DNA of 24,653 nucleotides, from positions 1-24,653 of the IMG/VR virus record IMGVR_UViG_3300021068_000328. One strand, given 5' to 3'. Positions 1,508-22,108 of the stretch are shown here, one piece after another. The position numbers and the translations under genes were made by a program. The first letter of the stretch is position 1; each line of letters begins with the position of its first letter. The notes under the pieces are model-generated. The model did not search any database. It was not told where the DNA came from and saw only the letters and a program-made list of their open reading frames with translations. The stretch comes from a virus.

Positions 1508-2266
1508 TTAACCAATTGAGAAGCCATAACCTTGGCCGCCTGCAACTTGAGTTTTGAGTTCTTCGTCAAGTTTTTCCATTTCGCCTAAGGCTTCTTGTTT
1601 TAAAGCATCACCATTAAGTGATGTACCACCTTGTGGACCAGCTACTGTGGCAAATTTGCTCCTAGCTTCACCAAGCATATATTTACACGTTGCAAGTGTA
1701 TAATCTTTAAGCCATTGTACAGCTAGATAATCTGTTAATAATTGGCTATCTGGGCGATAGTTATAACAGTATAATAGTAAGTCTTCTTCAGCACGGGGCC
1801 TCTGTAGAAGTGTTAATTCTTTAGTCGTAGTATTCCATTTAAATTCTATAAAACTACCAAACATTCTTCCAACAAGTTCTTGATATTGTGAGAATAACTC
1901 ATATGTTGCTAATCCGCCCATATTTGTACTTGCTAAAAGATAAGTGTTAGTATAAGCCATATTAAATGGTTCAAATAATGTACCACCATCACCGCCACCA
2001 GTACGTGATCCTATTGAACGTCTGAATAACTTTCTAACTTCAACAACTTCTTGTGGTAATATGTAGGTATTCTGATCAACAATAGTTGGCATAAACATAT
2101 ACGATTCTTCAACTGAATTATCAGAGCGTTGTCTAAATTTAGCAAAGGCTTTTTTAAGAGCTTCTTCGTAATGTGCAGGATCAAGTTCAACATCGACCAT
2201 GCCCCCACCTAATGATAGGTTTACATAATCAAATACTTCTTGTTTTTGTGTTGTTAAATCAGCCAT
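1508..2266 (-). CDS. 13: Neck protein gp13 (T4-like)
   Basis: Predicted neck protein that with gp14 joins the filled head to the tail. At 252 residues it has the features I recognise in marine T4-like gp13: an N-terminal helix with 'VDVELDPAHYEEALKKAF', then 'VEESYMFM', 'YILPQEVVEVRKLFRRSIG', a glycine-rich 'GGGDGGTLFEPFN' loop, 'NTYLLASTNMGGLATYE', 'QWLKDYTLATCKYMLGEARSKF' and a C-terminal 'GPQGGTSLNGDALKQEA', ending in FSIG. T4 gp13 itself is somewhat longer. The ATG at 2266 has GGAGA at 2276-2280, 9 bases upstream, and a late promoter box at 2286-2293. It is transcribed leftward, away from gp14, so the usual 13-14-15 collinear order is broken here. The main uncertainty is gp13 against gp14 naming, not the neck role. 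Confidence 0.82.
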   Translation of the reverse strand: MADLTTQKQEVFDYVNLSLGGGMVDVELDPAHYEEALKKAFAKFRQRSDNSVEESYMFMPTIVDQNTYILPQEVVEVRKLFRRSIGSRTGGGDGGTLFEPFNMAYTNTYLLASTNMGGLATYELFSQYQELVGRMFGSFIEFKWNTTTKELTLLQRPRAEEDLLLYCYNYRPDSQLLTDYLAVQWLKDYTLATCKYMLGEARSKFATVAGPQGGTSLNGDALKQEALGEMEKLDEELKTQVAGGQGYGFSIG

Positions 2267-4978: not shown

Positions 4979-5419
4979 ATGACTGATATAATATGTAGTG
5001 GTGCTCTCTTCTATACGTTAGATACTAATAGATTTTTATTTTTACATAGAGCCCAAAGTAAACAAAATAATGTTTGGGGACTTGTTGGTGGAACTAACGA
5101 GACTAAAGAAATCCCATTTCAAGCATTACAAAGAGAAGTACAAGAAGAAATAGGAAATACACCTCCTATAATTAAATCTATTCCTTTAGAAACTTTTGTT
5201 AGTAGTGACGAAAAGTTTAAGTTCCATACATATCTATGTGTTATAAAAGAAGAATTCATACCAAAATTAAATGAAGAACATAACGGATATGCTTGGGTAG
5301 GATTTAATAAGTGGCCAAAACCGTTACATCAAGGCTTACGAAATACTTTACAAAATAAATCAAATTTAACAAAATTAGAAACAGTTTTTAAATTAGTATC
5401 GCTAATGGAACAAAAATGA
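4979..5419 (+). CDS. Nudix hydrolase
   Basis: A 146-residue Nudix-fold pyrophosphohydrolase, acting on a nucleoside diphosphate linked to another moiety. The Nudix box is complete: residues 38-59 read as G-x5-E-x7-RE-x-x-EE-x-G, with 'REVQEEIG' as its core. It is preceded by 'FLFLHRAQSKQNNVWGLVGG', the strand-loop that positions the substrate in MutT-like proteins. The substrate cannot be read from sequence. Its place immediately before hldE, overlapping it by four bases (ATGA), makes a nucleotide-sugar or nucleotide-pool role reasonable, but that is inference. A 13-base gap separates it from gp15 and no Shine-Dalgarno is visible, so it is probably translated by reinitiation after gp15. Confidence 0.88.
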   Translation: MTDIICSGALFYTLDTNRFLFLHRAQSKQNNVWGLVGGTNETKEIPFQALQREVQEEIGNTPPIIKSIPLETFVSSDEKFKFHTYLCVIKEEFIPKLNEEHNGYAWVGFNKWPKPLHQGLRNTLQNKSNLTKLETVFKLVSLMEQK

Positions 5420-6693
5420 TCAAAGTGTATGGAGATATAATGTTAGACCGTTGGATTAACGGTAAAGCTGATAGAGTATCTCCTGAAGCTAATGTTTTAA
5501 TTTTAAACGAACACCACCAAACATTTAATTTAGGTGGTGCGGCTAATTTAGCAATTAATTTAAAAAATATAGATGTTAATACAGAATTATATGGAGTAGT
5601 AGGAAAAGATACGCAAGGAATTCATGTACTTCACTTATTAGGAAAGACTGATATAGTTAGTAATTTATCTAGTTTAGATAAGCCATATAGAACAACTATT
5701 AAAACAAGACTTGTAGGAGATTCAGGACAACATCTTTTACGTTGGGATAGAGAAACAAAATATACCGGTAAAGAAGCATTAAAAAGATTATCAGAAAGTC
5801 TGTCTAATAATGATATTGTTGTTATTAGTGATTATAATAAAGGAACTGTTACTGAAGAAACTGTTGAAGAATTATTAGGTACAGCAGATATAAAATTATT
5901 TGTTGATCCTAAACAAGATGCACATTATTATGATGGTGCCTTTTTAGTAAAACCTAATATGAAAGAATATGAAGAATGGAATGGCAAGTATAATAAAACT
6001 CATGCGTTAGAATATATGCGTGATCATAATTGGACTTGGTTAGTTGTAACTGACGGTTCTAATGGTATTCATGTTTTAAATAAAGATAGTGAATATCATT
6101 ATTTTAAAGAAGATATAAAAGAAGTCTCAGATGTTACAGGTGCAGGAGATATAGTTTTAGCAGTTATAGTTTATGCTTATAATAAAGGATTAAGTATTCC
6201 TTATGCTTGTGAACTTGCCAGTTATGCCGCAACTCGTAGTGTAGAAAAACGTGGAGTTGTTCCAGTAACATTAGATGATTTAGATAGGGGTATTGTATGG
6301 ACTAATGGGGTGTTTGATATACTGCATACTGGTCATTTAAAGCTACTTAGACACGCACACACGCTAGGTAAACGCCTTGTGGTGGGCATTAATAGTGATA
6401 AAAGTGTTAAGCGTCTTAAAGGCGAAACTAGACCCATTAACAATGAAATAAAGCGAAAAGAAACATTAGAAGAATTAGGATTTATAGATGAGGTTATAAT
6501 ATTTGATGAAGATACTCCAATAGATACTATTGAAAAAGTTAAACCAGATATCATTGTAAAAGGCGGAGATTATACTGTAGAAACAACTGTAGGAAATGAT
6601 CTAGCAAAGGTAGTTATATTTCCTAAGATAGAAGGACATTCAACAACAGAACTAATAAAAAAAATTTCTATTACAATGCCGGAGCAGTTATGA
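5416..6693 (+). CDS. hldE: Bifunctional heptose 7-phosphate kinase / heptose 1-phosphate adenylyltransferase
   Basis: Carries out two steps of ADP-heptose synthesis: phosphorylation of D-glycero-D-manno-heptose 7-phosphate to the 1,7-bisphosphate, and adenylylation of heptose 1-phosphate. Residues 1-290 are a PfkB/ribokinase domain: 'YGDIMLDRWINGKADRVSPEA' at the start, 'NLGGAANLAINL' (38-49), 'SDYNKG' (138-143), 'DPK' (164-166), and the anion-hole/catalytic motif DVTGAGD (239-245, catalytic Asp 245). Residues about 294-425 are the nucleotidyltransferase domain: 'TNGVFDILHTGHLKLL' with the HxGH signature at 304-307, 'GINSD', 'KRLKGETRPI' (332-341), 'VKGGDY' and the closing 'GHSTTELIKKI'. Order and motifs match E. 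coli HldE; at 425 residues it is about 50 shorter, mainly in the linker. Both active sites look intact. Start and stop overlap neighbours by ATGA. Confidence 0.93.
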   Translation: MIKVYGDIMLDRWINGKADRVSPEANVLILNEHHQTFNLGGAANLAINLKNIDVNTELYGVVGKDTQGIHVLHLLGKTDIVSNLSSLDKPYRTTIKTRLVGDSGQHLLRWDRETKYTGKEALKRLSESLSNNDIVVISDYNKGTVTEETVEELLGTADIKLFVDPKQDAHYYDGAFLVKPNMKEYEEWNGKYNKTHALEYMRDHNWTWLVVTDGSNGIHVLNKDSEYHYFKEDIKEVSDVTGAGDIVLAVIVYAYNKGLSIPYACELASYAATRSVEKRGVVPVTLDDLDRGIVWTNGVFDILHTGHLKLLRHAHTLGKRLVVGINSDKSVKRLKGETRPINNEIKRKETLEELGFIDEVIIFDEDTPIDTIEKVKPDIIVKGGDYTVETTVGNDLAKVVIFPKIEGHSTTELIKKISITMPEQL

Positions 6694-7502
6694 AAATTTT
6701 AATTACAGGAAGTAATGGATTTATAGGTAAAAATTTAGGCCCTTATCTTGTTCATAAAGGCCATGATGTAGAAGGGTATGATTATATTGATGGAAGATTT
6801 CCAGATCCAAAAGAGTACGATAGAGTAATTCATTTAGGTGCAATTAGTGATACAACAGAAAAAGATGTTGATAAAATCCTAAAGCAAAATTATGAGTTTA
6901 GTATTAAAATGTTAGAATTATGTGATACATTTGGAGTAACTTTTATGTATGCTTCAAGTGCCAGCGTATATGGAAGTAATACAGAATTTAAAGAAAACTC
7001 GCCTGTAAATCCGCAATCACCATATGCTTGGAGCAAATACTTATTTGATAGATTTGTTCAGTCAATAACTGAATATCAAGTTAATGTCCAAGGGTTTAGA
7101 TTTTTTAATGTATATGGTCCTGGAGAAGAACATAAAGGTGATCAAAAAAGTGTATTTCATAAGTTTAAAGAACAAGCAATTGAAACTAAAAAAATAAATG
7201 TTTTTGAAAATAGTGAGAATATACATAGAGATTTTATTCATGTAGGTGATGTATGTCAAATTTTAGAAAAATTTTTAACAGTTGATGCAACAGATATTTG
7301 GAATATTGGTACAGGGCAAACTAGAACTTTCTTACAAATAGCAGAACTAATAGCTAAAAAATGGGGAGCTGAAATTAATACAATACCTATGCCCGAAAAC
7401 TTAGTAAAACAATACCAGTATTATACAAAAGCAAACATAGAAAAGTTAAGTAATACTATTGGAGAGTACAAATTTAAACCGGTAGAGGATTTTATCATAT
7501 GA
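6690..7502 (+). CDS. hldD: ADP-L-glycero-D-manno-heptose 6-epimerase (HldD-type)
   Basis: Short-chain dehydrogenase/reductase-fold epimerase, predicted to convert ADP-D-glycero- to ADP-L-glycero-D-manno-heptose. The 270-residue protein opens with an NAD(P)-binding loop, 'ITGSNGFIGKNL' (GxxGxxG at 7-13). HldD-specific features rather than general epimerase ones are present: 'HLGAISDTTEKD' (48-59), 'YASSASVYG' (87-95), the YxxxK pair at Y112/K116, 'FRFFNVYGPGEEHKG' (137-150) with the second catalytic Lys position at K149, and 'ENIHRDFIHVGDV' (176-188). E. coli HldD is 310 residues, so this copy is compact, chiefly at the C-terminus. Position after hldE with an ATGA overlap strongly supports the assignment over other NDP-sugar epimerases. 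It ends with another ATGA overlap into the cupin gene. Confidence 0.88.
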   Translation: MKILITGSNGFIGKNLGPYLVHKGHDVEGYDYIDGRFPDPKEYDRVIHLGAISDTTEKDVDKILKQNYEFSIKMLELCDTFGVTFMYASSASVYGSNTEFKENSPVNPQSPYAWSKYLFDRFVQSITEYQVNVQGFRFFNVYGPGEEHKGDQKSVFHKFKEQAIETKKINVFENSENIHRDFIHVGDVCQILEKFLTVDATDIWNIGTGQTRTFLQIAELIAKKWGAEINTIPMPENLVKQYQYYTKANIEKLSNTIGEYKFKPVEDFII

Positions 7503-7900
7503 CACAATTAAATGGAACAGTAGAAAAGGGCTGGGGATACGAACTTATTTGGGCAACTAATGACAAATATTGTGGTAAAATTTTAGTGTTCGCTAAAAAA
7601 GGTAATAAATTTTCTATGCATTTTCATAAAGATAAAGACGAAACTTGGTTTGTAAATAACGGCAAGTTTATGTTAAATTACATTGACACTAATACTGCTC
7701 AACTATACCAAAAAGAATTAAAAGAAGGCGACACTTGGCATAACCCTCCTTTACAACCCCATCAATTAGTAGCATTAGAAGATGGAAGTAGCATAACCGA
7801 AGTTAGTACACCTGATTCAGTAGAAGATAATTATCGACTTATGCCTGGCGATAGCCAACCAATAGAAGATAGTCAAGATGCTAAAAATACACAAAAGTAA
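7499..7900 (+). CDS. Cupin-domain protein (sugar-phosphate isomerase-like)
   Basis: A 133-residue single-domain cupin. Motif 1 is 'SMHFHKDKDETWFVNNG' (39-55), with H41, H43 and E48 as likely metal ligands; motif 2 is 'NPPLQPHQLVAL' (82-93) with H88. The following 'EVSTPDSVEDNYRL' resembles the end of the mannose-6-phosphate-isomerase-like cupins often found in nucleotide-sugar operons. The sequence shows a metal-binding cupin; a sugar role is inferred from its neighbours, hldE and hldD, to which it is coupled by an ATGA overlap. I cannot tell whether it acts on heptose phosphate or another sugar. The last 20 residues are polar and overlap the next gene by 23 bases. Confidence 0.8.
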   Translation: MTQLNGTVEKGWGYELIWATNDKYCGKILVFAKKGNKFSMHFHKDKDETWFVNNGKFMLNYIDTNTAQLYQKELKEGDTWHNPPLQPHQLVALEDGSSITEVSTPDSVEDNYRLMPGDSQPIEDSQDAKNTQK

Positions 7901-8474
7901 TTTAGAGTTAAATCTTTCTGCATTAAAACATTCTTGTTATTTGTGTAATACGCAGATACAACAAGAATGTAGAGGTTTTGAACAACCAGTTGGTGGCACC
8001 TCAATACCTACCGGATTAAGCAAACATTATAATCTTTTTACATCAACACTTCCTGTATTTTTTGAATTATATAAAGAAATATCTAAAGCATTTCAAGAAA
8101 TTGAACATGACACAACACTTTCGTATTGGATTGTTGGTTGGTTAAACGTGTGGCCTAATAAAGGTGAAGTATTACCTTGGCACGGACATGGTGGTTCGGG
8201 CGGTAATGAGCATAATCAATTTCATGGATATTTTGGGGTCGATTGTGATGCTAATTCAGTTACTGAATATCGTTTTAGAGATACTACAGATATTATTGCG
8301 TCAGTACATAATAAAAATAATCAATTAGTAATTACAAATTCAGTTGGGGTTGAGCATAGAACTAGTAATTGGGATGAAGATTTCCCTAGAATTACAATTG
8401 CTTTTCAAATACAATCTACAGAAACAATAATGGATGATGTAGGTCATAAACTTAACTATTATATACCGGTATAA
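7878..8474 (+). CDS. 2-oxoglutarate/Fe(II) oxygenase-like protein
   Basis: A 198-residue protein whose C-terminal half looks like a double-stranded beta-helix oxygenase. 'NVWPNKGEVLPWHGHGG' (90-106) supplies a putative metal-binding H102-x-H104, followed by 'FHGYFGVD' and, after about 55 residues, 'GVEHRTSNW' with H160 and R171 in 'PRITIAFQI'. The normal facial triad is HxD/E...H, so the HxH form is unusual. The pattern of a late His followed by Arg in an 'R.TIAFQ' strand is typical of phage and marine bacterial 2OG oxygenase relatives. The N-terminal 80 residues contain four cysteines and no recognisable motif. The start overlaps the cupin gene by 23 bases; the next gene begins two bases after the stop. 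The substrate is unknown. Confidence 0.68.
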   Translation: MLKIHKSNLELNLSALKHSCYLCNTQIQQECRGFEQPVGGTSIPTGLSKHYNLFTSTLPVFFELYKEISKAFQEIEHDTTLSYWIVGWLNVWPNKGEVLPWHGHGGSGGNEHNQFHGYFGVDCDANSVTEYRFRDTTDIIASVHNKNNQLVITNSVGVEHRTSNWDEDFPRITIAFQIQSTETIMDDVGHKLNYYIPV

Positions 8475-8475
8475 T

Positions 8476-9075
8476 ATGCATATAGAAAAGATATTTCCAG
8501 TTGGTTTATTGGTACACGACATTGATCCTACGTTAGCAGATCGTGTGGAAGATATAGTAGTAAAAAAAATTAAAGACATTCCACGACCTGATGAAAATGC
8601 ACCCCACGCCACAGATTATTTTGAACCAAAAAAAGCTGTAGATTTACCTAACGATCTTCCAGAACTTTTTAGAATAATTTGTAATTGTATTGATCATTAT
8701 CAAACAAGTAATAATATAAGAACGGCACAACGAAAGGATACAGGATTTTCAATACCGGCTTTTTACGACCTTGCATATTGGACACAAGACTATATAGAAG
8801 GTGATGTTCATAAAGAACACGATCATGGTGTAGGACGTATTTCAGGAGTATATTGGGTTAGAGCAAATGAAAATGCTGGCGGGTTACAATTTAGAAATCC
8901 CAATCCTTTAGTACAATATCAATCACAACATGATACTAATGCAGAGTTTTCTTGGCAGGAATATGTATACCAACCTGTTAAAGGAAGAATGTTAATGTAT
9001 CCATCTTACTTAAAACATGAAGTATTAGAAAGTGGAAAAGACACAATACGTACAACGATTGCGTTTAACACTTAG
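8476..9075 (+). CDS. Putative 2OG-Fe(II) oxygenase
   Basis: A 199-residue protein of the phage-common putative 2OG-Fe(II) oxygenase type. Residues 100-140 read 'YWTQDYIEGDVHKEHDHG' then 'GRISGVYWVRANENAGGLQF', the typical arrangement in which His/Asp residues (H115, D116, H117) precede an 'SGVyYv' strand. Near the end 'GRMLMYPSYLKHEV' gives the distal His (H181) and 'IRTTIAFN' gives the Arg (R192) that binds 2-oxoglutarate. The N-terminus 'IEKIFPVGLLVHDI' also matches this family, whose members begin with 'lFp.pl......'. It is the second oxygenase-like gene in a row and closes the rightward operon. Its stop overlaps the stop of the giant structural gene on the other strand by four bases. Substrate unknown; protein hydroxylation or small-molecule oxidation are both possible. 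Confidence 0.8.
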   Translation: MHIEKIFPVGLLVHDIDPTLADRVEDIVVKKIKDIPRPDENAPHATDYFEPKKAVDLPNDLPELFRIICNCIDHYQTSNNIRTAQRKDTGFSIPAFYDLAYWTQDYIEGDVHKEHDHGVGRISGVYWVRANENAGGLQFRNPNPLVQYQSQHDTNAEFSWQEYVYQPVKGRMLMYPSYLKHEVLESGKDTIRTTIAFNT

Positions 9076-12000
9076 GCTTGTGCTTCACCCCATCTTAGAA
9101 TTAAGTTCGCGTTAACAGCCGCACCAGACGTTTTATAAACATTAATTGCTAATACATCAGGTCCATTTGGATATGTTCCTCGTCCACCTAATGTAGTATT
9201 TGTTAGTTCTTTCAATCCTGATAAATCTAAGTTTGCAAGACTACCTGGGTTTGCAATGAATGAAAATACAGTTTCACCTGGCTGTGCATACGGTGGTTGC
9301 CCAAATAAGAAACCTACAGTTGCGCCAGCCGTCACAGTTGCAATTGATGTTTGTGAAAACGTTACTTTATAATACTCTACTCCACCAAATGTTAATGGTC
9401 CTTGAACATTTGATACCGCAGTACCCGCCGGAAATTTAGCATCACTTACTTCTGTACCTGCAACTGCTTGAGTTGATTCCCAACTTGTTCTTGTAAAGTA
9501 CAAGTAGTTAGTATTTGTTAATTCACCACCAACAGCAAATGTAACTGTTTCTCCAGAACTAAGATAGCCTGTGTTGCTATTACTCATAAAAAGTCTGACA
9601 TAGTAACCCCCATCATAAATCTGAGATACAGTTGTTCCTGCTGGAAAGTCTGAAGTTCCTGCGGCAGGGTTACTAGTAGCAATAACTTGTGTACCAGTAG
9701 TAACAGTATTATTTAAGGCATCCCATGAAGCAGGAGTAAAGTAATGATATCTATTATTTGGATATCTGTTATATAATACTTCTGCTGTGTCTGTCAACTG
9801 CACCGTTGTAGTTGCATTTCTAATAACCTGTGTAGCACCTGTACTCCACGTAACAGATCCACCTGGTGCCACCTGTGCAAAGCTAGGTTGGCCTCCTTGA
9901 GCAAGTCCTGACAATCCGCCCCAACCAACGTTACCTGGATCAAGTGGATAGTTTTGTGGGTTTAACACACCCTCAATAACAATACCGCCTGTGCTTGTAT
10001 CTGATGTAACCTCAATACCTTCAAGTAGCAACTGAGCTCTATTAAGTAGTTCACGTTCACCTAAGTCACCAACAATAGCGTTGGATACACTTGGTGCTAG
10101 TCTAAGCATAAACACCGTGTTTCTTGTTGTAGTAATTTCGTTACCAGTTGATGCGTATGAGAAAATGTAACCACGATCACTATCAAAGCCACCGTCTGTT
10201 AAGAACGCTGATCCCCAGTGTGATATAATCGGTGATATAGTATTACTAATTAGTGGTACACCAGTTTTTGCTGTATGTGCCTCGGCTTCTCCAGCTGTAT
10301 ATGTTCTGTTGGCTCCTGATGCATAGTTTGACATCGGTGCTGACCTTGTTGCTCCAGTTAATGTATCACCATTAATACCTGTATAATTAATCATCTCACC
10401 GTCAATCATAATTGTGCCAGCTAATGGAAAATATTTTGCATTTACTAATGGAATAGTAGTTTGTGCATAATCGATATCTGCCGCTAGTTTTCCTGATGGA
10501 CCTTCGTTAGTAATTTCATATCTAACTGGCATATTACCAGTACGCATAAATGCTTCTGTGTTTATATTACTATTTCTCATTCTATGGAAGAAAATAAAGT
10601 TACCATCGTCACCACGCAACATATAGTCAATAAATCCTGCTCCGTACCAACTGTATTGGATTCCCATCATTTGCATCTTAGACACATCAATAATATATCC
10701 GCTACTACCTGTACCGTCAAGTTTATCTTTATTAAATTCGTTTTGTTTAGTTTTCTTATCACTAACTAAACATATTTTACACGCTGACGCTGGAGTTACA
10801 CCACGAAAGTCAGGTGTAAGATACATACTTGTATCACTTGCAATATTAGAAACAACATGGGTCATTCCTTTAATAACAATTCTATCGCCTGCTTTAAGTT
10901 GATCTCTAAATCTTGTTCCAACTCCTGTACATAAGTTACTATCAACAGCAACACTTACTGTACCTGCTAATTGTAATGTTGCAGTACGTTGTACACAAGT
11001 AAAGTTCTCTCCATCATACTCCATAAAGATACCGTTCTGATCATCAAATGCTCCTGAACGTACAGTTGCACCGTGCCATGTAAGTAACGAAACTTGTGCT
11101 CTTGGACTTAATGTTGGAGTTGTGTTACCTAGTTTGAAATCAGCAACAACTTTAAATTGTCTTTCTGAAACAATAGATGCTACCGTATAATCTCCGTTAT
11201 ATCCTGGAGTTTCAATTCCAAGTAATCTAATTACTCCACCAATTTGTAGACCGTGGTCTACATCATCTGTAGTAACAGTAATAAATGATCCAATTGTCAC
11301 TGCTTCTGCTGTAACGTTAAGCAAATCATAACTTGGTGCAAATAAGGCACCAGTTGTATACATAATACCTTTACCAGACTGGTATCTAATATATTTTTTA
11401 CTCTGTCTAATTGCCTGTGCACCGTGTTGTGGTCCACCTGTTCCTAACATAACACCACCATCATATGGTCTATGTACAAAGAACGAATCGGGTCTTGGAT
11501 AAATGTTTGCAACAATATCGTCAACATCACCAATTGTTCCTGGTGCTCTACATTGATATTTTAATGTAAGTAATGATGGAACTTGCTGTGCAAAAAATGG
11601 TCCTTCACAAAGTGTATGATTATTCGTTCCACTATCACTAGCTACAGTAATAATAAATGAATCTCCTGGAACTAATCCGTGTGCAGTAGCAAATGTAATT
11701 TTAACAGTAGCCAACGCCGCAAAAGCAATAGTACTTTGTGCCGTTAATGCTTGTGTTACCGATTCAGATAAAGTGACTGATGAATAAGTTTGAACAACTG
11801 TTCCTGTAATTCCTGATCCTAATCCTGTAACAGCAGTAATACTTCCGTCTGTTGTTACTCCACCAACTGTTATAATAATGTCATTAGTTGCATCTACACC
11901 ACCAAGTTGTGATCCTGTAATTTTAATTTTGTTTCCTGCAAGATAATTTTCACCATCAGCAACTACTGTCGGCGTACTATATACCCCTGTTGAACGTGTT

Positions 12001-15000
12001 ATTGTAAATGTAGCATTAGTACCTATATTATTTAAATTTGTTCCGGCAATATCAGTATACGATGCTGTACCACCAGGTGCTGTACCACTATGACTAAATG
12101 TAACTATTGCGCCTGTGGCATTAACACTAAGGATAGTTATTTCTACATCATTAGTTGGACTTGCACCACCTACTTGTGGACCAAGAATTTTAATTGTTTG
12201 TGATGCATTATAAAGCGTACCACCGTTAGCAATTGTTGGTGTATAAGTGCCACCACTTAATACTACATTCCAAGTAGCACCTGCACCAACTGTCATAACT
12301 GCTTGACCATCTACCTGGCTAATTCCGGGATAACTTGCTTGGTCTAATGCTGTACCAGTTACATTAATAGTTAAAATTTCACCACCGCCACCAACTGTAG
12401 CAATTGTAATTGTACAATCATTTGTACCAGATCCACCCCCTAAGTTTGCTCCGTCAATTGTAAATGTTTCACCTGTTAAGTAACCCGTTCCTGCGGTACT
12501 AATAATTGCCGAATACGCTATATCTAATCTAGTTATAGTAAAATCTGCTGTTGTTCCGCTGGCTGTATTTGTAGTATATGCTACTCCAGAATAAGTTGCT
12601 GTTGCATCTGCGGCACTACCACTAATTGAAAGTCCAGTAATTACACCTCCAGTAACTGAACTAATCGTAACTTCTGCATCATTAGTTGTATTAAGACCAC
12701 CTAATGTTGATCCTGTAATTTTTAATAAGTCACCAACAACATATCCAGATGTTGCATCAGCTGATGTTCCTGCTATAGTAAATCCTGTAATTAATCCTAC
12801 GGCATTTACACTAGTTACAGTAACAGTTGCATCATTAGTTGGTGTTGCTCCGCCTAACGTGGTTCCTGCAATTACTACTTGTGAATCAACATTATATGTC
12901 TCACCACCTACTGCTCCAAGTACAGCTGAATACGTATTATTATAATTTACAGTAACATTAAATTGTCCATTAGTACCTATTTGATTTACACCATTAGTTA
13001 CATTACTAAATGTTTGAGTATTAATTGCTGTACCAATAATAGTTGCTGTTAGCATAGTACCTGCGCCGCCGGGATCAACTGTGGCTACAGTAACAGTTGC
13101 ATCATTACCCGGTGTTGCTCCGCCTAAGGCTGTTCCTAAAACAGTTAATGTATCACCTACTCCATAACCTGAACCACCACCTGGTACTGCTACACTATAA
13201 ACTGTACCTACCCTAGAAATATTAATAGCCGCTGTAGTACCACCAATACTTGAAGTAGTATATGTAACATCTGTGTATGTAACGTTTGCATCAGATCCAA
13301 CACCAGTAATAGTCATACTCGTTATAACACCAGCACTAACTCCTGTAACTTTAACTAACGCATCGTTAGTTGAAGAAGCTCCACCTAAAGCTAATCCATC
13401 AATTTTAATATAATCATTAACAATAAATCCTGTACTAGCATCGCCGGCATTTAATGCAATGGCATAAACATTATTAGTTAGAGTAACATCAAGAGACGCT
13501 CCAGTACCAGCACCACCTGTAAACGTTCCTGTAGAATTATTATAAGTTGGTTGTGCTAAACTAACACTATATGCATTATTAGTATATGAAATATCAAATA
13601 ATGCTCCAAGTCCAACACCATTAGCGTTTGTACCTGTTAATCCTATATAGTTAGCATTTCCATCAAATGCTGTTCCTGTTGCATTGATAGTAACAATATC
13701 TCCGCTAGTATCTGCTTCTGTAATTTCAATTCTACAATCATGTTCAGGAGTAGTACCACCTAGTGAATTACCTAAAACTATAATAACATCTCCAGTTTCA
13801 TAATCATCGCCGTCGTTGTTAACAGTTACAGTATAATTTCCACTAGCTCTATCAATATCAAATGTTCCACTAAATCCTGCACCTGTAACATTTGTTCCTG
13901 ATAATGCTGTGTAAGTAACATTATTACCAATAATTGTGTTCGTTGTATTTCCATCTAAATTAATATTATTTCCAACAACACTACTTACAAATACCGCAGT
14001 TCCGTCACCTCTATCAAGTCCCATACCAGTTAATACACCTGCAGTATTTGTAACTGGAATTACGTTAGAACCAATAACAACATCTGACGATGTTTGAAGT
14101 GTTGCAATTGTTCCACCAGTACCTTGTACTGATGTAACCTGTGCACCAGTTGGAATACCGGCGCCATTGTTTATTGTTTGAATTTTGAATGTTAAGGCCG
14201 CCGCTCCGCCACTACCTAAGTTAGCATCTGTAACTGTAATAGTATCATTAACTGCATTACGTCGTCCACCTGTAACAATAGTTGCTACTGCGGCACCTGT
14301 CCCGTCAATTACAATATTAACTGTTGGAACAATTAAGTCTGCAACTACGCTATCTGATGTACCAACAATATTATTATAAGTTCCTGCTGTTCGTAAAGCA
14401 TCTGCCGCCGAGTATGTATAAATTGCAATAGCCATGCCAGCTTCAACTAACATCGGAGAACCAACTTCTGGAAGTGTTCCAGTCCATGTAATCTTATCTG
14501 TCCCATTTAATACCGCTAATGGATTATATAATACTCCTGCGGCACCTTGTGATTCAATAGTAAATGTTGGATTACCAATTGATGCTCCTGTATAAAATCC
14601 TGCTTCTCGTAATTGTGTATAAAATGTTGAAAGTACTTCACCGTTAGCTGTACCAACTTTTGATTTTGCAAAATATGTAAATGTACTAATAGTAGGTGTT
14701 GTTGAAATAATAAATGAACCTTCAGCTCTACTTGCCCCTGCTACTGAATTTTCTAATGCTTTAAGTGTAATTGGAGTTCCTGACTCTAAGTTATGAGCGC
14801 CAATCGTAGTAACAGTAATTAATGACTGACCAATTCCACCAGTTCCACTTGAAGCGTCTGTTACAACTGAACTAACTTGTTTATCTGTACCTGGTACTTC
14901 ATAAATTGATGGATAACCTCTTTGTGTAGCAATCGCTTGCCACTTCGTAGGTTGTAATCCATACTCAAAGTCAGCATCAAGCATAGATACTGAGTTTGAA

Positions 15001-17840
15001 ACTCTCATACGTTCAATTGCATCAGTACCAAAGTCGTATGGTCTAGTTCTTAATTCACCTTGGTCAATAAATATTTGAAGATCATCTGTTTCTGAAAATA
15101 TTTGTCTTTCATCTTTAACAGGCAGTACACTTGTACCATGTGTAATAACATCATTAACAACTTTAAATAGTTCACTTGTTCTATCTGATGTACCTAACTC
15201 TGCCGCAGTATACCATGTAACCTGAGCGACAGCCCCTGGACCTGCTTGTAATGTAGGCCATAAAATGTTTTTAAATACATAATGATTAATTAATCGTAAT
15301 ATAAATTCTTTAGTATATACTTCGTGTGAACGATCACCATCAATTTGCGGTGTTGCTCCATACCAATACTTTTCAGCATTTTTATAAGTTTCAAGATTGC
15401 CGCCATATTTTAAATCATACTTAAGAGCGTCAATTTGATATTTTACATCTCTTTCACATTTTGGTCCATTATAAGTATAGTCAGACCAAGATGGAATAGT
15501 ATTTGGTAACACTGATGTTCCACTTTGTATAACACTAGTAAATATTGCAACTAGATCTGTTACTCTTCCAAGTGTTTTTGTCTCACCATCATTAGCATTA
15601 GTAGATTGTACTGTTACAATAGGACTTTGTACGGTTGTCGCCATTGTATTTGTAAGTACATTATTAATAATTAAATCTCTTAATTTATTATTAACAGCAA
15701 TAGCATATGATATTTCTTGCTCAGTAGTAGCTGTAAATCCTTCACCTGAATTAGTAAGATTAGAAGTTACACCTTCCCAATATCTTTTTGCGTACTCAAT
15801 AGTTTTAGAATTGCTTCCATTTAGGATGTCATATGCAATTGCATCGATGTTATATTTTGTATCACGTTCACATTTTTCATGCTGTACAGTATCATGGACG
15901 CCTGGATATGTTATATCAAACCAAGCCATTACTTCGTCAGCCAACCATTCTTTGTTAGCAACTATCAATGCATTAGCAAAAGGATATGTAGTAGCTGTTG
16001 AAACATTATTACCAATCCATGCAGTAGCTTCTTTTTGTAAGAATTCTTTATTTGCTTCTAATTGAACAAGTGCATTAGGATGATATGTTGGAGTATCTGT
16101 GTTTGCATCTAAAAAGATAGTTGTAACTGTACCAGTTCTTTCTAAAAACTTTGGAAAATCATCGTCAACATTTTTAGTGAGAGCATTCATGTCTGTTTGG
16201 AACTTAACAGTAGCACCTTTTTCTGGATCTGTAAAGTTAAACAAGACTTCATTAACTGTAGTATCAGTAATTAATAATAAGTCATTTGTTGGTACTCGAG
16301 TTTGTAATCTAATAGAACTAACTCCTGCTCTATCAAGAGCTGGAACATTATCAAGTCCATGTTCAACTACGTCAGTAATAATACTAAATCTATCTGTTAT
16401 AATACCAGCCGCGGCACTTTCTGCCACACTAGCTGTATTAAAATATTGAGATGTTGTTGTTTGTAAAGGCGTATAACCTGCATTTGTATATCCCGGAGTT
16501 GGTGCAACGCCTGGACCATTTTCAGTAATATTATTAATAATAGTAACAGCATCTGCTATTCTAGAAGTACATCCAGCTTCTCCATTATTTGCATTTGTAG
16601 TTTGTGTAGTAACTACTGGAACTTGCTGAGTTGAATATGCTGTGTTTGTAAGAATATAATTATTAATAATATCTTGTACTTTATTGTTAACAGCAAGTGC
16701 ATACGCTTGTTCACCGCTACCTAATAAAGTAGCTATTCCCGTAAAATATTTGTTTCCCATTTTAATGGATTGATGATTACCACCAGTATATAAATCTGAT
16801 CTAATTGCATCAATATTAAATTTAGTATCACGTTCACATTTTTCATGTCTGTCTGCTGTATGAACACCTGGGTAAGTATTATCAAACCAAGCCATAACTT
16901 CATCAGCTATAAATTCTTTATTTGCATCAATTAATGTTAATGCATACGGAAATGTTGGTGCTTGTGTAGGTTGTGCTAAAATATAATTATTAATTAAATC
17001 ACGTACATAATTTTTAGCAAATATTTCAGGTGTTCTATTACCGTCAATTTGCGGAGTTGAATTAATCCAATATTTACTAGCAGTAAATCTTGTTTGTTCA
17101 TTACCACCATATCTTAAATCAAAAAGTATACCACCTGTACTATCAGTACCTTGTAAGTTATATCTTGTATCTCTTTCACAAAGTACAGGATCATAAGTGT
17201 ATCCTGCCCATGATGGAGTTACTGCCGGTATTGCACTTAATCCGTTTTCAGTAACATCATTAAGAATATCTTTTAATTCTATTACTCTGTATACTGCATA
17301 AGATTCGCCAACTGGGTTACTTGTATCTTGTGTAGTAACTATTGGTGATTGTTGTGTTGTATATGCAACATTTTTTAGGATATAATCTTTAAATATTTCT
17401 ACTACTTTATTATTAACAGCAAGTGCATACGTTTGTTCACTTGAGTTAGCAAGATTTGAATTAGTACCTTCCCAATATTTTTTTGCATATTCAATACATT
17501 TAGAATTACCACCAGTATTTAAATCATATGCAATTGCGTCAATGTTGTATCTTGTATCACGTTCACATTTTTCATGTCTTTCTGGTGTGTGAACTCCTGG
17601 ATATGTAGAATCAAACCAAGCCATTACTTCGTCAGCTACAAATTCTTTATTTGCTATTATCTGTGCATACGCATTTGGATACGTTGGCTCCATTTTAACT
17701 TGTTCAGCAATCCATGCCGCTGTTTCATCACAAATGAATTCAACATTATTCTTAATAAGATCATGCGCCATGCCATAGCGGTTATCTGTAACAGGGATAC
17801 CTGGTTGAAATACATATTGTTCTACTTTTGTTTTTGCCAT
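9072..17840 (-). CDS. Giant repetitive virion structural protein (2922 residues)
   Basis: An exceptionally long structural protein, presumably of the baseplate or tail fibres. Regions in order: residues 1 to about 900 hold five helical modules centred on 'CERDT.YNIDAI..DL..GGN' motifs at about 93, 220, 337, 657 and 797, three of them preceded by 'NKEF.ADEVMAWFD.TYPGVH'. A 'VSMLDADFEYGLQPTKWQ' segment lies near 970, typical of marine T4-like virion proteins. Residues about 1340-2010 hold beta modules with a repeated 'G..Y..GD...I.G..LGG...TND' motif. The remaining 900 residues form a non-repetitive, conserved-looking end with 'QSKKYIRYQSGKGIMY', 'GIQYSWYGAGFIDYMLRG' and 'NTEAFMRTGNMPVRYEI'. 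I recognise it as a marine T4-like phage structural family but cannot assign a T4 gene number; gp7- or gp10-type baseplate protein and fibre are the options. It is last in the leftward operon, 6 bases after the preceding stop. Confidence 0.85.
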   Translation of the reverse strand: MAKTKVEQYVFQPGIPVTDNRYGMAHDLIKNNVEFICDETAAWIAEQVKMEPTYPNAYAQIIANKEFVADEVMAWFDSTYPGVHTPERHEKCERDTRYNIDAIAYDLNTGGNSKCIEYAKKYWEGTNSNLANSSEQTYALAVNNKVVEIFKDYILKNVAYTTQQSPIVTTQDTSNPVGESYAVYRVIELKDILNDVTENGLSAIPAVTPSWAGYTYDPVLCERDTRYNLQGTDSTGGILFDLRYGGNEQTRFTASKYWINSTPQIDGNRTPEIFAKNYVRDLINNYILAQPTQAPTFPYALTLIDANKEFIADEVMAWFDNTYPGVHTADRHEKCERDTKFNIDAIRSDLYTGGNHQSIKMGNKYFTGIATLLGSGEQAYALAVNNKVQDIINNYILTNTAYSTQQVPVVTTQTTNANNGEAGCTSRIADAVTIINNITENGPGVAPTPGYTNAGYTPLQTTTSQYFNTASVAESAAAGIITDRFSIITDVVEHGLDNVPALDRAGVSSIRLQTRVPTNDLLLITDTTVNEVLFNFTDPEKGATVKFQTDMNALTKNVDDDFPKFLERTGTVTTIFLDANTDTPTYHPNALVQLEANKEFLQKEATAWIGNNVSTATTYPFANALIVANKEWLADEVMAWFDITYPGVHDTVQHEKCERDTKYNIDAIAYDILNGSNSKTIEYAKRYWEGVTSNLTNSGEGFTATTEQEISYAIAVNNKLRDLIINNVLTNTMATTVQSPIVTVQSTNANDGETKTLGRVTDLVAIFTSVIQSGTSVLPNTIPSWSDYTYNGPKCERDVKYQIDALKYDLKYGGNLETYKNAEKYWYGATPQIDGDRSHEVYTKEFILRLINHYVFKNILWPTLQAGPGAVAQVTWYTAAELGTSDRTSELFKVVNDVITHGTSVLPVKDERQIFSETDDLQIFIDQGELRTRPYDFGTDAIERMRVSNSVSMLDADFEYGLQPTKWQAIATQRGYPSIYEVPGTDKQVSSVVTDASSGTGGIGQSLITVTTIGAHNLESGTPITLKALENSVAGASRAEGSFIISTTPTISTFTYFAKSKVGTANGEVLSTFYTQLREAGFYTGASIGNPTFTIESQGAAGVLYNPLAVLNGTDKITWTGTLPEVGSPMLVEAGMAIAIYTYSAADALRTAGTYNNIVGTSDSVVADLIVPTVNIVIDGTGAAVATIVTGGRRNAVNDTITVTDANLGSGGAAALTFKIQTINNGAGIPTGAQVTSVQGTGGTIATLQTSSDVVIGSNVIPVTNTAGVLTGMGLDRGDGTAVFVSSVVGNNINLDGNTTNTIIGNNVTYTALSGTNVTGAGFSGTFDIDRASGNYTVTVNNDGDDYETGDVIIVLGNSLGGTTPEHDCRIEITEADTSGDIVTINATGTAFDGNANYIGLTGTNANGVGLGALFDISYTNNAYSVSLAQPTYNNSTGTFTGGAGTGASLDVTLTNNVYAIALNAGDASTGFIVNDYIKIDGLALGGASSTNDALVKVTGVSAGVITSMTITGVGSDANVTYTDVTYTTSSIGGTTAAINISRVGTVYSVAVPGGGSGYGVGDTLTVLGTALGGATPGNDATVTVATVDPGGAGTMLTATIIGTAINTQTFSNVTNGVNQIGTNGQFNVTVNYNNTYSAVLGAVGGETYNVDSQVVIAGTTLGGATPTNDATVTVTSVNAVGLITGFTIAGTSADATSGYVVGDLLKITGSTLGGLNTTNDAEVTISSVTGGVITGLSISGSAADATATYSGVAYTTNTASGTTADFTITRLDIAYSAIISTAGTGYLTGETFTIDGANLGGGSGTNDCTITIATVGGGGEILTINVTGTALDQASYPGISQVDGQAVMTVGAGATWNVVLSGGTYTPTIANGGTLYNASQTIKILGPQVGGASPTNDVEITILSVNATGAIVTFSHSGTAPGGTASYTDIAGTNLNNIGTNATFTITRSTGVYSTPTVVADGENYLAGNKIKITGSQLGGVDATNDIIITVGGVTTDGSITAVTGLGSGITGTVVQTYSSVTLSESVTQALTAQSTIAFAALATVKITFATAHGLVPGDSFIITVASDSGTNNHTLCEGPFFAQQVPSLLTLKYQCRAPGTIGDVDDIVANIYPRPDSFFVHRPYDGGVMLGTGGPQHGAQAIRQSKKYIRYQSGKGIMYTTGALFAPSYDLLNVTAEAVTIGSFITVTTDDVDHGLQIGGVIRLLGIETPGYNGDYTVASIVSERQFKVVADFKLGNTTPTLSPRAQVSLLTWHGATVRSGAFDDQNGIFMEYDGENFTCVQRTATLQLAGTVSVAVDSNLCTGVGTRFRDQLKAGDRIVIKGMTHVVSNIASDTSMYLTPDFRGVTPASACKICLVSDKKTKQNEFNKDKLDGTGSSGYIIDVSKMQMMGIQYSWYGAGFIDYMLRGDDGNFIFFHRMRNSNINTEAFMRTGNMPVRYEITNEGPSGKLAADIDYAQTTIPLVNAKYFPLAGTIMIDGEMINYTGINGDTLTGATRSAPMSNYASGANRTYTAGEAEAHTAKTGVPLISNTISPIISHWGSAFLTDGGFDSDRGYIFSYASTGNEITTTRNTVFMLRLAPSVSNAIVGDLGERELLNRAQLLLEGIEVTSDTSTGGIVIEGVLNPQNYPLDPGNVGWGGLSGLAQGGQPSFAQVAPGGSVTWSTGATQVIRNATTTVQLTDTAEVLYNRYPNNRYHYFTPASWDALNNTVTTGTQVIATSNPAAGTSDFPAGTTVSQIYDGGYYVRLFMSNSNTGYLSSGETVTFAVGGELTNTNYLYFTRTSWESTQAVAGTEVSDAKFPAGTAVSNVQGPLTFGGVEYYKVTFSQTSIATVTAGATVGFLFGQPPYAQPGETVFSFIANPGSLANLDLSGLKELTNTTLGGRGTYPNGPDVLAINVYKTSGAAVNANLILRWGEAQA
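12817..12866 (-). repeat. Near-identical repeat segment, copy A
   Basis: This 50-base segment closely matches 13087-13137, exactly 270 bases away. They differ mainly at a 3-base block and a 4-5 base block. They encode the same 'LGGATP.NDATVTV' peptide. The conserved nucleotide sequence, not only the protein, points to recent duplication or gene conversion. Confidence 0.8.
13087..13137 (-). repeat. Near-identical repeat segment, copy B
   Basis: Partner of 12817-12866, displaced by 270 bases (90 codons). Confidence 0.8.
15838..15960 (-). repeat. Helical 'NKE-MAWFD-CERD' repeat, copy 3
   Basis: Encodes 'NKEWLADEVMAWFDITYPGVH' style sequence followed by 'HEKCERDTKYNIDAIAYD'. It shares the nucleotide block tcaaaccaagccat and much flanking sequence with the copies at 16803-16925 and 17530-17654. 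Confidence 0.85.
16803..16925 (-). repeat. Helical 'NKE-MAWFD-CERD' repeat, copy 2
   Basis: Second copy of the module, encoding NKEFIADEVMAWFDNTYP and 'HEKCERDTKFNIDAI'. It is similar at the nucleotide level to the copies at 15838-15960 and 17530-17654. Confidence 0.85.
17530..17654 (-). repeat. Helical 'NKE-MAWFD-CERD' repeat, copy 1
   Basis: First copy in the protein, encoding NKEFVADEVMAWFDSTYP and 'HEKCERDTRYNIDAIAYDL'. Two more diverged modules (CERD at about 17180 and 15450) lack the 'MAWFD' half. Confidence 0.85.
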
Positions 17841-19381: not shown

Positions 19382-21199
19382 TTAATAGTTTGATACGGTG
19401 ATTAATTTGTTATATTCAGGCAGGAATAAGTATTCAATATCACTATTTGCAAGGGTCCTAACAGCATCATCTAGTGTTTCAACTAATGGCTCGCCAGCTA
19501 AATTAAAGCTAGTATTAAACACTATAGAAATACCTGTTTTTTCCTTAAAGGCTTTAATAATATTATAATAATGGGGATTTTGTTTTTCATTTACTGTTTG
19601 AATTCTACAAGTTCCATCTACATGAATAATTGCAGGAATTCGTTCAGCAATACCATCCTGACAATTTACAGCATACATCATAGTTGGTGATGATTCCATT
19701 CCACGCAAATCAAACCATTCATGAACATCTTCTTCTAAAATTGTTCCTGCAAATGGTCTAAAATATTCTCTATGTTTTACTTCATTTACATGGTCCTTAC
19801 CATTAGGATCTGACGGGTCATACATAATAGTTCTATTTCCTAATGCTCTTGGACCGTTCTCACTTCTTCCTTGAAATAGTGTTACAATTTTTCTATCTGT
19901 TAATAATGTTACAGCATCGTCAATTGTTGCTGTTTTTACATCAGCATTATATTTTTTTGCAACTTCATGTATTTGATCTACGGAATAGTTATATTCTGGA
20001 CCTTCATATAATGTTTCAACTTGTGGGTTAACAGTAGTATCACCAGTTAACTTTCTATGCCATAGTAATGCCGCACCCATTGCCGTGCCAGCATCATTTG
20101 AAACTGGTTCAACATAAATTTCAATATCTTCATCTTTAAGTGCTTCTAAATAATGATAATTTGCAACACAATTTAATCCATACCCACCGCTAATTACAAC
20201 TTTCTTTTTGCCGCTTAATTTAACAGATTCTTTAATAAGTTTTACAACTTCGTCTTGTGTTTGTGTTTGTATAGAATAAGCAAAGTCTCTACGATTTTGA
20301 TATTCTGTAATATCGATTTGTTCATCTCTTGTAACGTCGCCTTTTGCAAGTTCAGTAAACATATTATAGTTAACATGAGCACCATTTGGATAATCAGGTA
20401 TAATAACTTGTCTATCTGCTATAGGGTAAATTGTATCATCTCTAAATATTTTCGGACACTTGGAGTTTTCTTTCCCGTAAGGAAATAATCCCATTGTTTT
20501 TCCTGCTTCAATAAATTGAAATCCACAATATTCTGTAACAGCCTCATATGCTTTTGTAATACCAGCATTTTCTGAGATGTGTAAAATATGTGTAGCATCT
20601 GCAGGTTCATCAAACATTTCGCTAGAGAATTCTATTATTTTATTGCCTATCATTGGACCTCTAACGCCCACATGTTTATAAAATGTTTTAAATGTTTCTG
20701 GATACTCACAATCAAAAATACTTTCAGTTTCCCAACATGTCATTACTTCGTTATTAATACGAAAGTCAAGAAAGGTTCCAGCACCGTCAACTACAAGTGC
20801 AACTGCAGAATCAAATCCACTACGATAAAATGCACAAGCGGCATGTAATTTATGATGAATATGACTTAGATCAATAACTTGCGGATGGCTTTCTGCATAT
20901 GAATTGTGTCCACGTTGAATTAGTCCTAACTTTCTTGCTAATCCAGTATATGGATCGTCACCACTAAAGTCAATTTTTCCTGCTGATGATTGTAATGATT
21001 GTGTATGAGCTACAATCAGATAATCAAGTTTATCTGTATATTCTAAAATTTTCACAATAGCGGCATAAGGAGCACCGTCATATTTTTGTCTTGTTAAACG
21101 TTCTTCTTCTATAGCAAATATAACTTCACCATCTTTTAATAGACATACTCCAGCATTGTGTCCTCTGGCTATTCCTGCAATCCAAACCGGTTTATTCAT
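19382..21199 (-). CDS. NodU/CmcH/TobZ-family O-carbamoyltransferase
   Basis: Predicted to transfer a carbamoyl group from carbamoyl phosphate, via carbamoyl-AMP, to a hydroxyl of a sugar or other acceptor. At 605 residues it is full length for the family. The N-terminal Kae1-like domain has 'IAGIARGHNAGVCLLKDGEV' (7-26), 'EEERLTRQKYDG' (31-42), a His cluster 'SHIHHKLHAACAFYRSG' (112-128), 'LVVDGAGTF' (135-143), 'KVVISGGYGLNCVAN' (333-347) and 'PVSNDAGTAMGAALL' (365-379). The C-terminal YrdC-like domain has 'FQGRSENGPRALGNRTIMYDP' (442-462), 'REYFRPFAGTIL' (477-488) and 'NTSFNLAGEPLVET' (562-575). All hallmark blocks are intact. An AAGGA site lies inside the end of the SGNH-like gene, which it follows by 3 bases. 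Acceptor unknown; its neighbours suggest a glycan. Confidence 0.92.
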   Translation of the reverse strand: MNKPVWIAGIARGHNAGVCLLKDGEVIFAIEEERLTRQKYDGAPYAAIVKILEYTDKLDYLIVAHTQSLQSSAGKIDFSGDDPYTGLARKLGLIQRGHNSYAESHPQVIDLSHIHHKLHAACAFYRSGFDSAVALVVDGAGTFLDFRINNEVMTCWETESIFDCEYPETFKTFYKHVGVRGPMIGNKIIEFSSEMFDEPADATHILHISENAGITKAYEAVTEYCGFQFIEAGKTMGLFPYGKENSKCPKIFRDDTIYPIADRQVIIPDYPNGAHVNYNMFTELAKGDVTRDEQIDITEYQNRRDFAYSIQTQTQDEVVKLIKESVKLSGKKKVVISGGYGLNCVANYHYLEALKDEDIEIYVEPVSNDAGTAMGAALLWHRKLTGDTTVNPQVETLYEGPEYNYSVDQIHEVAKKYNADVKTATIDDAVTLLTDRKIVTLFQGRSENGPRALGNRTIMYDPSDPNGKDHVNEVKHREYFRPFAGTILEEDVHEWFDLRGMESSPTMMYAVNCQDGIAERIPAIIHVDGTCRIQTVNEKQNPHYYNIIKAFKEKTGISIVFNTSFNLAGEPLVETLDDAVRTLANSDIEYLFLPEYNKLITVSNY

Positions 21200-21202
21200 A
21201 TT

Positions 21203-22108
21203 TTAAAATCCTTCATATCCTGTATTAATATCGACTAATTCATCTAATATTCGTTGTTCAAAACCAAAAAGATCTTTATGTTCTTTTCTAAATTGACTTA
21301 ATTGGTTATATAAATCGTTTTGTTTATTACAGTTTTCTTTTTCTATTCCTAAACTAGGACGTACAATGTCATTTAAATAATTATAATGATGTACATGACT
21401 AGGATGCAATTCTAACCATGGCTCTTTATCATCAGGACTTTGGAACCAATATGCATCATCTGGATTATCCCACGTATACAATCCTATAGGAGACATCCAG
21501 TTCTCTTTATAGTTGTCGAATACTGTTTGATAGCACTTCAACGCAGGCTCACGCTCCCACATAGACAATCTTCCTGGTTTATGGCTTTCTCCGTGGTCGG
21601 GATGATAAGGAAAATCAGTTCCGCATTTGTCTAACTCACCAATTGATGTCATTCTCCAAGTACATCCTGTTGACTCTAACAATCCTTGTGTAAGTGTTAT
21701 TTGATTCATTGTATGCATAAAATAACTTCGTTCATCCCAAAATCTCTTAATCCACTCATTGTCATATATTGAACTATTGCCTTGACTAAAAATACTACCT
21801 TGGGTTTTCCATCCTATCTTATTTGTATCCTTAAACCAAGAGTGTAAAAAACTATCCTTGTTAAACAATAAAGGATTAAACGTGTGCCAGTCATTACGCA
21901 TATGACTAGACCATTGTACTAATATAATATCATCTTTAGTAAAATTATTTTTTATATGACACTCTGCTACACGTTCTGCTATAGCTTTGTTGCCGAGTCC
22001 TGGATGAGCCCAATTAGAGTATGAATTAAATTCATAACCTAAATAGTCAGCATATGATGGCCAAGCATAGTATGTAAAAGAGCAACCAAACGCAAAGACT
22101 CGCTTCAT
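21203..22108 (-). CDS. SGNH/GDSL hydrolase-like protein
   Basis: A 301-residue protein with signs of an SGNH-type esterase or acyl-transferring fold. 'FAFGCSFTYYAWPSYADYLG' at residues 6-25 places a Ser (S10) in the 'G-(D/C)-S-(F)-T' nucleophile turn, and 'PGLGNKAIAERV' supplies the block-II Gly/Asn. A late 'ELHPSHVHHYNYL' (about residues 231-243) offers the catalytic His, as in 'D..HPs..gh'. The usual Asp before that His is not obvious; E231 or another acidic residue may serve. Substrate unknown: removing or adding an acyl group on a glycan is one option. It lies between the glycosyltransferase and the carbamoyltransferase, one base after the former's stop, so the three are probably co-translated. 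Confidence 0.72.
   Translation of the reverse strand: MKRVFAFGCSFTYYAWPSYADYLGYEFNSYSNWAHPGLGNKAIAERVAECHIKNNFTKDDIILVQWSSHMRNDWHTFNPLLFNKDSFLHSWFKDTNKIGWKTQGSIFSQGNSSIYDNEWIKRFWDERSYFMHTMNQITLTQGLLESTGCTWRMTSIGELDKCGTDFPYHPDHGESHKPGRLSMWEREPALKCYQTVFDNYKENWMSPIGLYTWDNPDDAYWFQSPDDKEPWLELHPSHVHHYNYLNDIVRPSLGIEKENCNKQNDLYNQLSQFRKEHKDLFGFEQRILDELVDINTGYEGF

Follow-up and report, generated by a model that had tools for sequence, protein, structure and literature searches.

A marine phage gene cassette for predicted ADP-heptose synthesis, with a cupin in the place of GmhA

A 24,653-base fragment of a marine bacterial virus (IMG/VR record IMGVR_UViG_3300021068_000328, positions 1 to 24,653; hereafter the window) encodes the kinase/adenylyltransferase HldE and the epimerase HldD, followed directly by a small cupin. 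On balance, we favor the reading that these genes belong to a phage ADP-heptose pathway, complete save for the phosphatase GmhB, that feeds a heptosyltransferase and a carbamoyltransferase and probably decorates tail proteins. Sequence, structure, and genome context suggest that the cupin most likely stands in for GmhA as a putative sedoheptulose-7-phosphate isomerase. We advance more tentatively the broader idea that such cupins are a new, non-orthologous class of this isomerase common to marine phages and Woesearchaeota-type archaea, together with carbamoylated-heptose tail decoration.

In the pathway we propose, the phage would make ADP-L-glycero-beta-D-manno-heptose by itself. The cupin, instead of GmhA, would convert sedoheptulose 7-phosphate to D-glycero-D-manno-heptose 7-phosphate, the HldE kinase domain would phosphorylate C1, and GmhB, host-borne for the window phage and phage-borne in some relatives, would take off the 7-phosphate. 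The HldE adenylyltransferase domain would then form ADP-heptose, which HldD would epimerize at C6. Finally, a GT9-fold protein would transfer the heptose and the carbamoyltransferase would probably carbamoylate the sugar, with a tail or fiber protein as the most likely acceptor; the enzymatic activities, carbamoylated heptose as the product, and an acceptor on the virion are steps that we infer.

A preliminary description of the window treated phage carriage of this pathway as unexpected, but it is already published for marine T4-like phages. Both cyanophages and pelagimyophages are known to carry hldE/hldD as such: rfaE has been reported in pelagimyophages (PMC7029224), heptose genes in cyanophages (PMC7378029), and co-occurring lipopolysaccharide (LPS) genes in P-SSM2, S-SM2, and S-SSM7 (PMC3037559). 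In the open-access literature, we found no paper that recognized either the replacement enzyme of these phages, the cupin, or their attachment enzyme, the GT9-like protein.

HldE and HldD in a coupled gene run

The cassette comprises four genes:

4979–5419, + strand: Nudix hydrolase, 146 amino acids (Pfam NUDIX, E 2.8e-14), overlapping hldE at an ATGA
5416–6693, + strand: hldE, 425 amino acids, with heptose-7-phosphate kinase (about residues 1–290) and heptose-1-phosphate adenylyltransferase (about 291–425) domains, from profiles and motifs
6690–7502, + strand: hldD, ADP-heptose 6-epimerase of a short form, 270 amino acids, from profile, motifs, and tree
7499–7900, + strand: cupin, 133 amino acids, proposed sedoheptulose-7-phosphate isomerase replacing GmhA, from context and profiles

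Each junction in this run, from Nudix through hldE and hldD to the cupin, is a 4-base overlap, that of hldE and hldD being an ATGA. The preliminary description had both hldE and hldD intact, adjacent, and ATGA-coupled among structural genes, and we found the same, with gp13/gp15-type neck genes and tail fibers as neighbors. The Nudix gene is kept beside hldE in loci of the window type and lies beside the GT9-like gene in four loci (L166–L169).

HldE carries a PfkB domain (Pfam, E 6.7e-32) and then a CTP_transf_like domain (E 1.6e-18) in one chain. Its best NCBIfam models are PRK11316 (E 4.2e-99), TIGR02198, and TIGR02199, and its best solved relative is HldA (4e84, E 1.3e-32). HldD matches Pfam Epimerase (E 3.2e-37) and, as its best NCBIfam model, HldD itself (TIGR02197, E 1.1e-69), with 1eq2 as best solved relative (E 2.5e-42). 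Across the two proteins we found the motifs GGAAN, DPK, DVTGAGD, TNGVFDILHTGH, RLKG, VKGGDY, STT, YAWSK, and HKG. The active-site motifs had been called intact at the outset, and alignment bore this out: both HldE domains keep the motifs of E. coli HldE, including the DVTGAGD anion hole/base, HxGH, and STT, and HldD has the Ser/Tyr/Lys triad (YxxSK) and the HldD-specific lysine of HKG.

Placement of the epimerase among non-heptose NDP-sugar epimerases had been named beforehand as the result that would speak against HldD. A 79-sequence tree put the window protein and E. coli HldD with the other HldD-type rows, apart from the GalE, RfbB, RfbD, Fcl, and Gmd types (98/91); one row from the candidate phyla radiation (CPR), called HldD only through its query, grouped with the outgroup. 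The HKG lysine motif is present in the window and E. coli proteins and in no row recovered with GalE, RfbB, or RfbD queries. The window HldD keeps GxxGxxG, and its cofactor-binding N-terminus is about 25–35 residues shorter than that of E. coli HldD; in one phage relative (L082) HldD is full length at this end. Sequence, structure, and genome context support the identities of HldE and HldD, and both are predicted to be active enzymes.

Two variations on this gene pair were seen elsewhere. In loci L055–L071 the adenylyltransferase domain of HldE is 70–81% identical to that of the window and the kinase domain 32–34% identical, a pattern that indicates domain swapping inside one gene. An extra gene of about 215 amino acids, methyltransferase-like by eye, lies between hldE and hldD in two loci (L012:11269-11916 and L096:9360-10004).

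The cupin and the GmhA step

The cupin occupies the place of GmhA in gene order, in fusions, and in genome distribution. Both HldE domains are present at 107 viral loci, of which 95 also have the cupin and none has GmhA; in the other 12, the contigs stop 1–1716 bases past hldE. No GmhA or SIS match was found in 18 viral records, which included five complete cyanophages.

The predicted structure is a standard cupin fold with a metal-ligand pattern of H41, H43, E48, and H88, and the best PDB profile match is D-lyxose ketol-isomerase (2y0o, E 1.1e-5). Members of the family are weakly similar to Pfam Lyx_isomer (27 of 39) and MannoseP_isomer (24 of 39). In profile, Pfam similarity, and fold the protein is comparable to the cupin sugar isomerases, D-lyxose isomerase and archaeal phosphomannose isomerase (PMI), but it is smaller than D-lyxose isomerase and belongs to a distinct family linked to HldE. 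The reaction needed here, from a ketose phosphate to a manno-configured aldose phosphate, would be the seven-carbon analog of the PMI reaction.

A genome scan identified cupin-hldD-hldE-gmhB operons in Woesearchaeota, Nanoarchaeota, and CPR bacteria. In a first test, several of 29 genomes with the cupin also had a strong GmhA-like match; as this was equivocal, we carried out a phylum-wide test that included adjacency, covering 237 genomes from a single archaeal phylum, of which 50 had a strong HldE kinase. The cupin was present in 15 of these 50 and a strong GmhA in 28, with only one genome having both (Fisher p 4e-6), and within 4 kb of hldE the counts were 11, 25, and none (p 2e-4), although both p-values ignore genome kinship and many of the genomes are likely incomplete metagenome-assembled genomes (MAGs), points that weigh against the proposal. 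The sole genome with both (G242) has its cupin on a separate contig.

Gene fusions follow the same pattern. Reading of the DNA confirmed fusions of the HldE kinase to the cupin in four archaeal loci (L277, L278, L279, and L280) and to GmhA in another four (L281, L282, L283, and L284). The phage cupins and three aligned kinase-fused archaeal cupins share 19 invariant residues, among them the metal-ligand pattern. L278 and L280 also encode a fusion of the HldE adenylyltransferase domain with GmhB beside the kinase-cupin fusion, such that two polypeptides would cover four pathway steps.

Within the open-access literature, where we found no paper on a cupin-type sedoheptulose-7-phosphate isomerase, the proposed substitution appears to be new, and genomic context supports it well. 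If it is correct, the first step of the textbook pathway acquires an alternative enzyme unrelated to GmhA, and heptose synthesis becomes recognizable in archaea and phages whose pathways are now called incomplete.

GmhB and the related cyanophage clusters

Set against the E. coli pathway of GmhA, HldE, GmhB, and HldD, the window has both HldE domains and HldD, as judged by motifs and tree, has a cupin instead of GmhA, and carries no GmhB. Where the preliminary description listed both GmhA and GmhB as gaps, the second therefore remains, whereas the first is likely filled by the downstream cupin. It had left dephosphorylation to the host or to other phage genes, and related phages do carry gmhB in the cassette. 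Searches for GmhB in window-type relatives with TIGR00213 and TIGR01656 matched no viral record other than G010 and that of L070. A relative of GmhB is part of the cassette in L070 and in L082 and neighbors the SGNH gene in L108; of the viral loci scanned, 11 have such a relative and 12 others a small HAD protein of the cyanophage type. A PF08282 search of the virus record of the window found nothing. Window-type relatives of up to 267 kb yielded no GmhB, so the host probably supplies this step for the window phage.

The same set of kinase, adenylyltransferase, epimerase, and cupin is found in a cyanophage cluster (P-SSM2, S-SSM7, Sf-FS3, P-TIM68, and S-T4) that adjoins gp13-gp15 in S-SSM7 and Sf-FS3. 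The cyanophages have kinase and adenylyltransferase as separate genes and a small HAD protein, whereas the window has a fused HldE and a Nudix gene. This HAD protein, P-SSM2_311 (L001:15101-15445, 115 amino acids), is annotated as a phosphoheptose isomerase. We rejected it as a GmhA: it starts MSKRYCIDIDGT, and, because it has a HAD motif (IDIDGT) at its start and no SIS-domain match, it is probably a GmhB-type phosphatase, to which the annotation would be corrected. Equivalents are present in L002–L005, and no SIS domain was found in these phages. In P-TIM68, a transketolase-like gene (L004:9320-10465) that could supply sedoheptulose 7-phosphate lies ahead of the heptose genes, within their gene run.

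A GT9-fold protein and the proposed fate of the heptose

Further annotated features of the window, including the GT9-like and carbamoyltransferase genes that the preliminary description left unmentioned, are the following:

7878–8474, + strand: 198-amino-acid protein, 2-oxoglutarate (2OG)-Fe(II)-oxygenase-like by eye only, with no Pfam or PHROG match
8476–9075, + strand: 2OG-Fe(II) oxygenase (Pfam 2OG-FeII_Oxy_5, E 1.5e-18)
9072–17840, - strand: giant virion/tail-fiber protein, 2922 amino acids, a candidate acceptor (phrog_5838 virion structural protein, E 2.3e-230; tail-fiber families)
19382–21199, - strand: NodU-type O-carbamoyltransferase, 605 amino acids (Pfam Carbam_trans_C, E 6.8e-59; Carbam_trans_N, E 1e-27)
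21203–22108, - strand: SGNH-like protein, 301 amino acids, assigned by eye, with no Pfam match
22110–23075, - strand: GT9-fold glycosyltransferase, proposed ADP-heptosyltransferase, from an AlphaFold2 model, Foldseek, and the donor motif
23146–24633, - strand: tail-assembly-chaperone-like protein (Pfam Phage_tail_APC, E 2.1e-6)

The GT9-like protein is the likely ADP-heptosyltransferase of the system. Its AlphaFold2 model (pLDDT 83.8, pTM 0.86) has as top Foldseek matches the GT-B-fold, GT9 structures 3tov (E 4.1e-10), WaaC, WaaF, and TibC. A D-S-x-G-x-H motif, of the ADP-heptose-binding D-[ST]-G-x-x-H type, aligns with the donor site of WaaF, WaaC, and WaaQ with Asp228-His233 spacing. What the window protein has in common with WaaC, WaaF, and TibC is this fold and motif, on which the assignment rests because there is no Pfam match, including to PF01075, and no significant PDB sequence match; identity to them is about 10%. 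One relative (G012) passes the PF01075 cut-off at 24.5 bits. The window protein also has an invariant Arg17 aligned with Asp13 of WaaC and WaaF, which in WaaC we take to be the canonical catalytic base of GT9 heptosyltransferases. Given this replacement, we propose a GT9-like fold and heptosyltransferase function and do not claim full GT9 membership.

All 82 viral loci with the GT9-like gene have a NodU-type carbamoyltransferase after it on that strand, 56 of them with the SGNH-like gene in between, and 78 have a tail-assembly-chaperone-like homolog upstream. The window carbamoyltransferase has both NodU-type Pfam domains above cut-off and differs from other NodU-type enzymes as the constant partner of a GT9-fold protein. 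Both genes are also only a few kb away from the heptose genes in the cyanophages P-SSM2, S-SSM7, and Sf-FS3 and in several IMG/VR loci, and are close to hldE in L001–L003, L174–L178, L185, and L186. The link between ADP-heptose synthesis and these two proteins would offer a testable outlet for phage heptose.

Because the transferase module sits within a tail operon, we consider a tail or fiber protein the likely acceptor. A competing explanation, which we regard as unlikely though it deserves most weight among the alternatives, is that the phage uses its ADP-heptose and GT9-like transferase to change the LPS core of the infected cell, for example to block superinfection, an option raised in the preliminary description. 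WaaC and WaaF, which act on LPS, are among the nearest folds, but so is TibC, which modifies a protein. Heptose carbamoylation is known in Pseudomonas LPS (PMC7168646), and LPS modification was favored by the authors who described pelagimyophage glycosyltransferases (PMC7029224). Against this, the transferase is part of a late tail operon, beside the chaperone homolog, and the same gene set occurs in cyanophages even though cyanobacterial LPS has neither heptose nor 3-deoxy-D-manno-octulosonic acid (KDO) (PMC4390846). The lack of heptose in that LPS and the tail-operon context together make the virion the likelier acceptor, and the proposed outlet bears on the puzzle of why cyanophages carry heptose genes at all.

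Several observations weigh against heptose synthesis and virion decoration as we propose them, in addition to the missing GmhB and the GT9-like protein's Arg17 and lack of family matches. HldE scores below the NCBIfam equivalog cut-offs (332 against 521, 229 against 345, and 157 against 181.5 bits), a weak test given its divergence, and HldD below that of TIGR02197 (235 against 274.6 bits), such that every curated cut-off is missed; the short HldD is also missing a portion of the cofactor-binding region present in the E. coli enzyme. Foldseek matches of the cupin are generic, with quercetinase, oxalate decarboxylase, and KdgF ahead of PMI and D-lyxose isomerase. The family is also wider than the pathway: Marinoscillum (L196) has a 66% identical relative on its own, and a further one lies beside an aminotransferase in a phage-like contig (L208). 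Finally, the cassette and the transferase module of the window are on opposite strands, with the giant fiber gene between them.

Some of these points would suit a cassette that makes a different nucleotide sugar, with the cupin a true PMI or a 3,5-epimerase: the sub-threshold HldE and HldD scores, the occurrence of the cupin in other contexts, and its weak similarity to the type II PMI and WbuC families. We think this improbable, as the epimerase has the HldD-specific motif and tree position, GmhB relatives occur in cassettes, the kinase-cupin fusions mirror the kinase-GmhA fusions, and no GDP-mannose enzymes were recognized in the window. Still less probable is that ADP-heptose serves some other end, for example in modifying a nucleotide or nucleic acid, as a decoy metabolite, or in counter-defense. 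DNA can be modified by phage glycosyltransferases (cited in PMC12619734), and the operon's Nudix hydrolase could act on nucleotide sugars, but the same phages hold the GT9-fold protein and carbamoyltransferase, in places near hldE. That the genes are inactive filler retained for genome length, as suggested for cyanophage LPS clusters, for which the choice between functional and stuffer DNA was left undecided (PMC3037559), is very improbable given that reading frames stay open, and motifs and gene order are kept, over more than 100 viral loci whose protein identity falls from 99% to about 30%.

The neck protein of the window (1508–2266) is nearest to those of the large phages Phosso, PA5oct, and Atu_ph07, unlike the cyanophage heptose/LPS clusters. 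A cyanobacterial host is unsupported, both by this affinity to large non-cyanophages and by the records of relatives, which are without psbA. Two contigs filed under a Neomarinimicrobiota MAG (L193 and L194) carry the neck, fiber, and heptose genes of this phage and give a weak hint of a host; we rejected them as cellular evidence for the cassette, as they are phage contigs with an 80% identical neck protein. Synechococcus phage S-CAM1 has a counterpart with 59% identity to the GT9-like protein and, because the neck protein of the window is instead near those of large phages, the GT9 module has probably moved between phage lineages.

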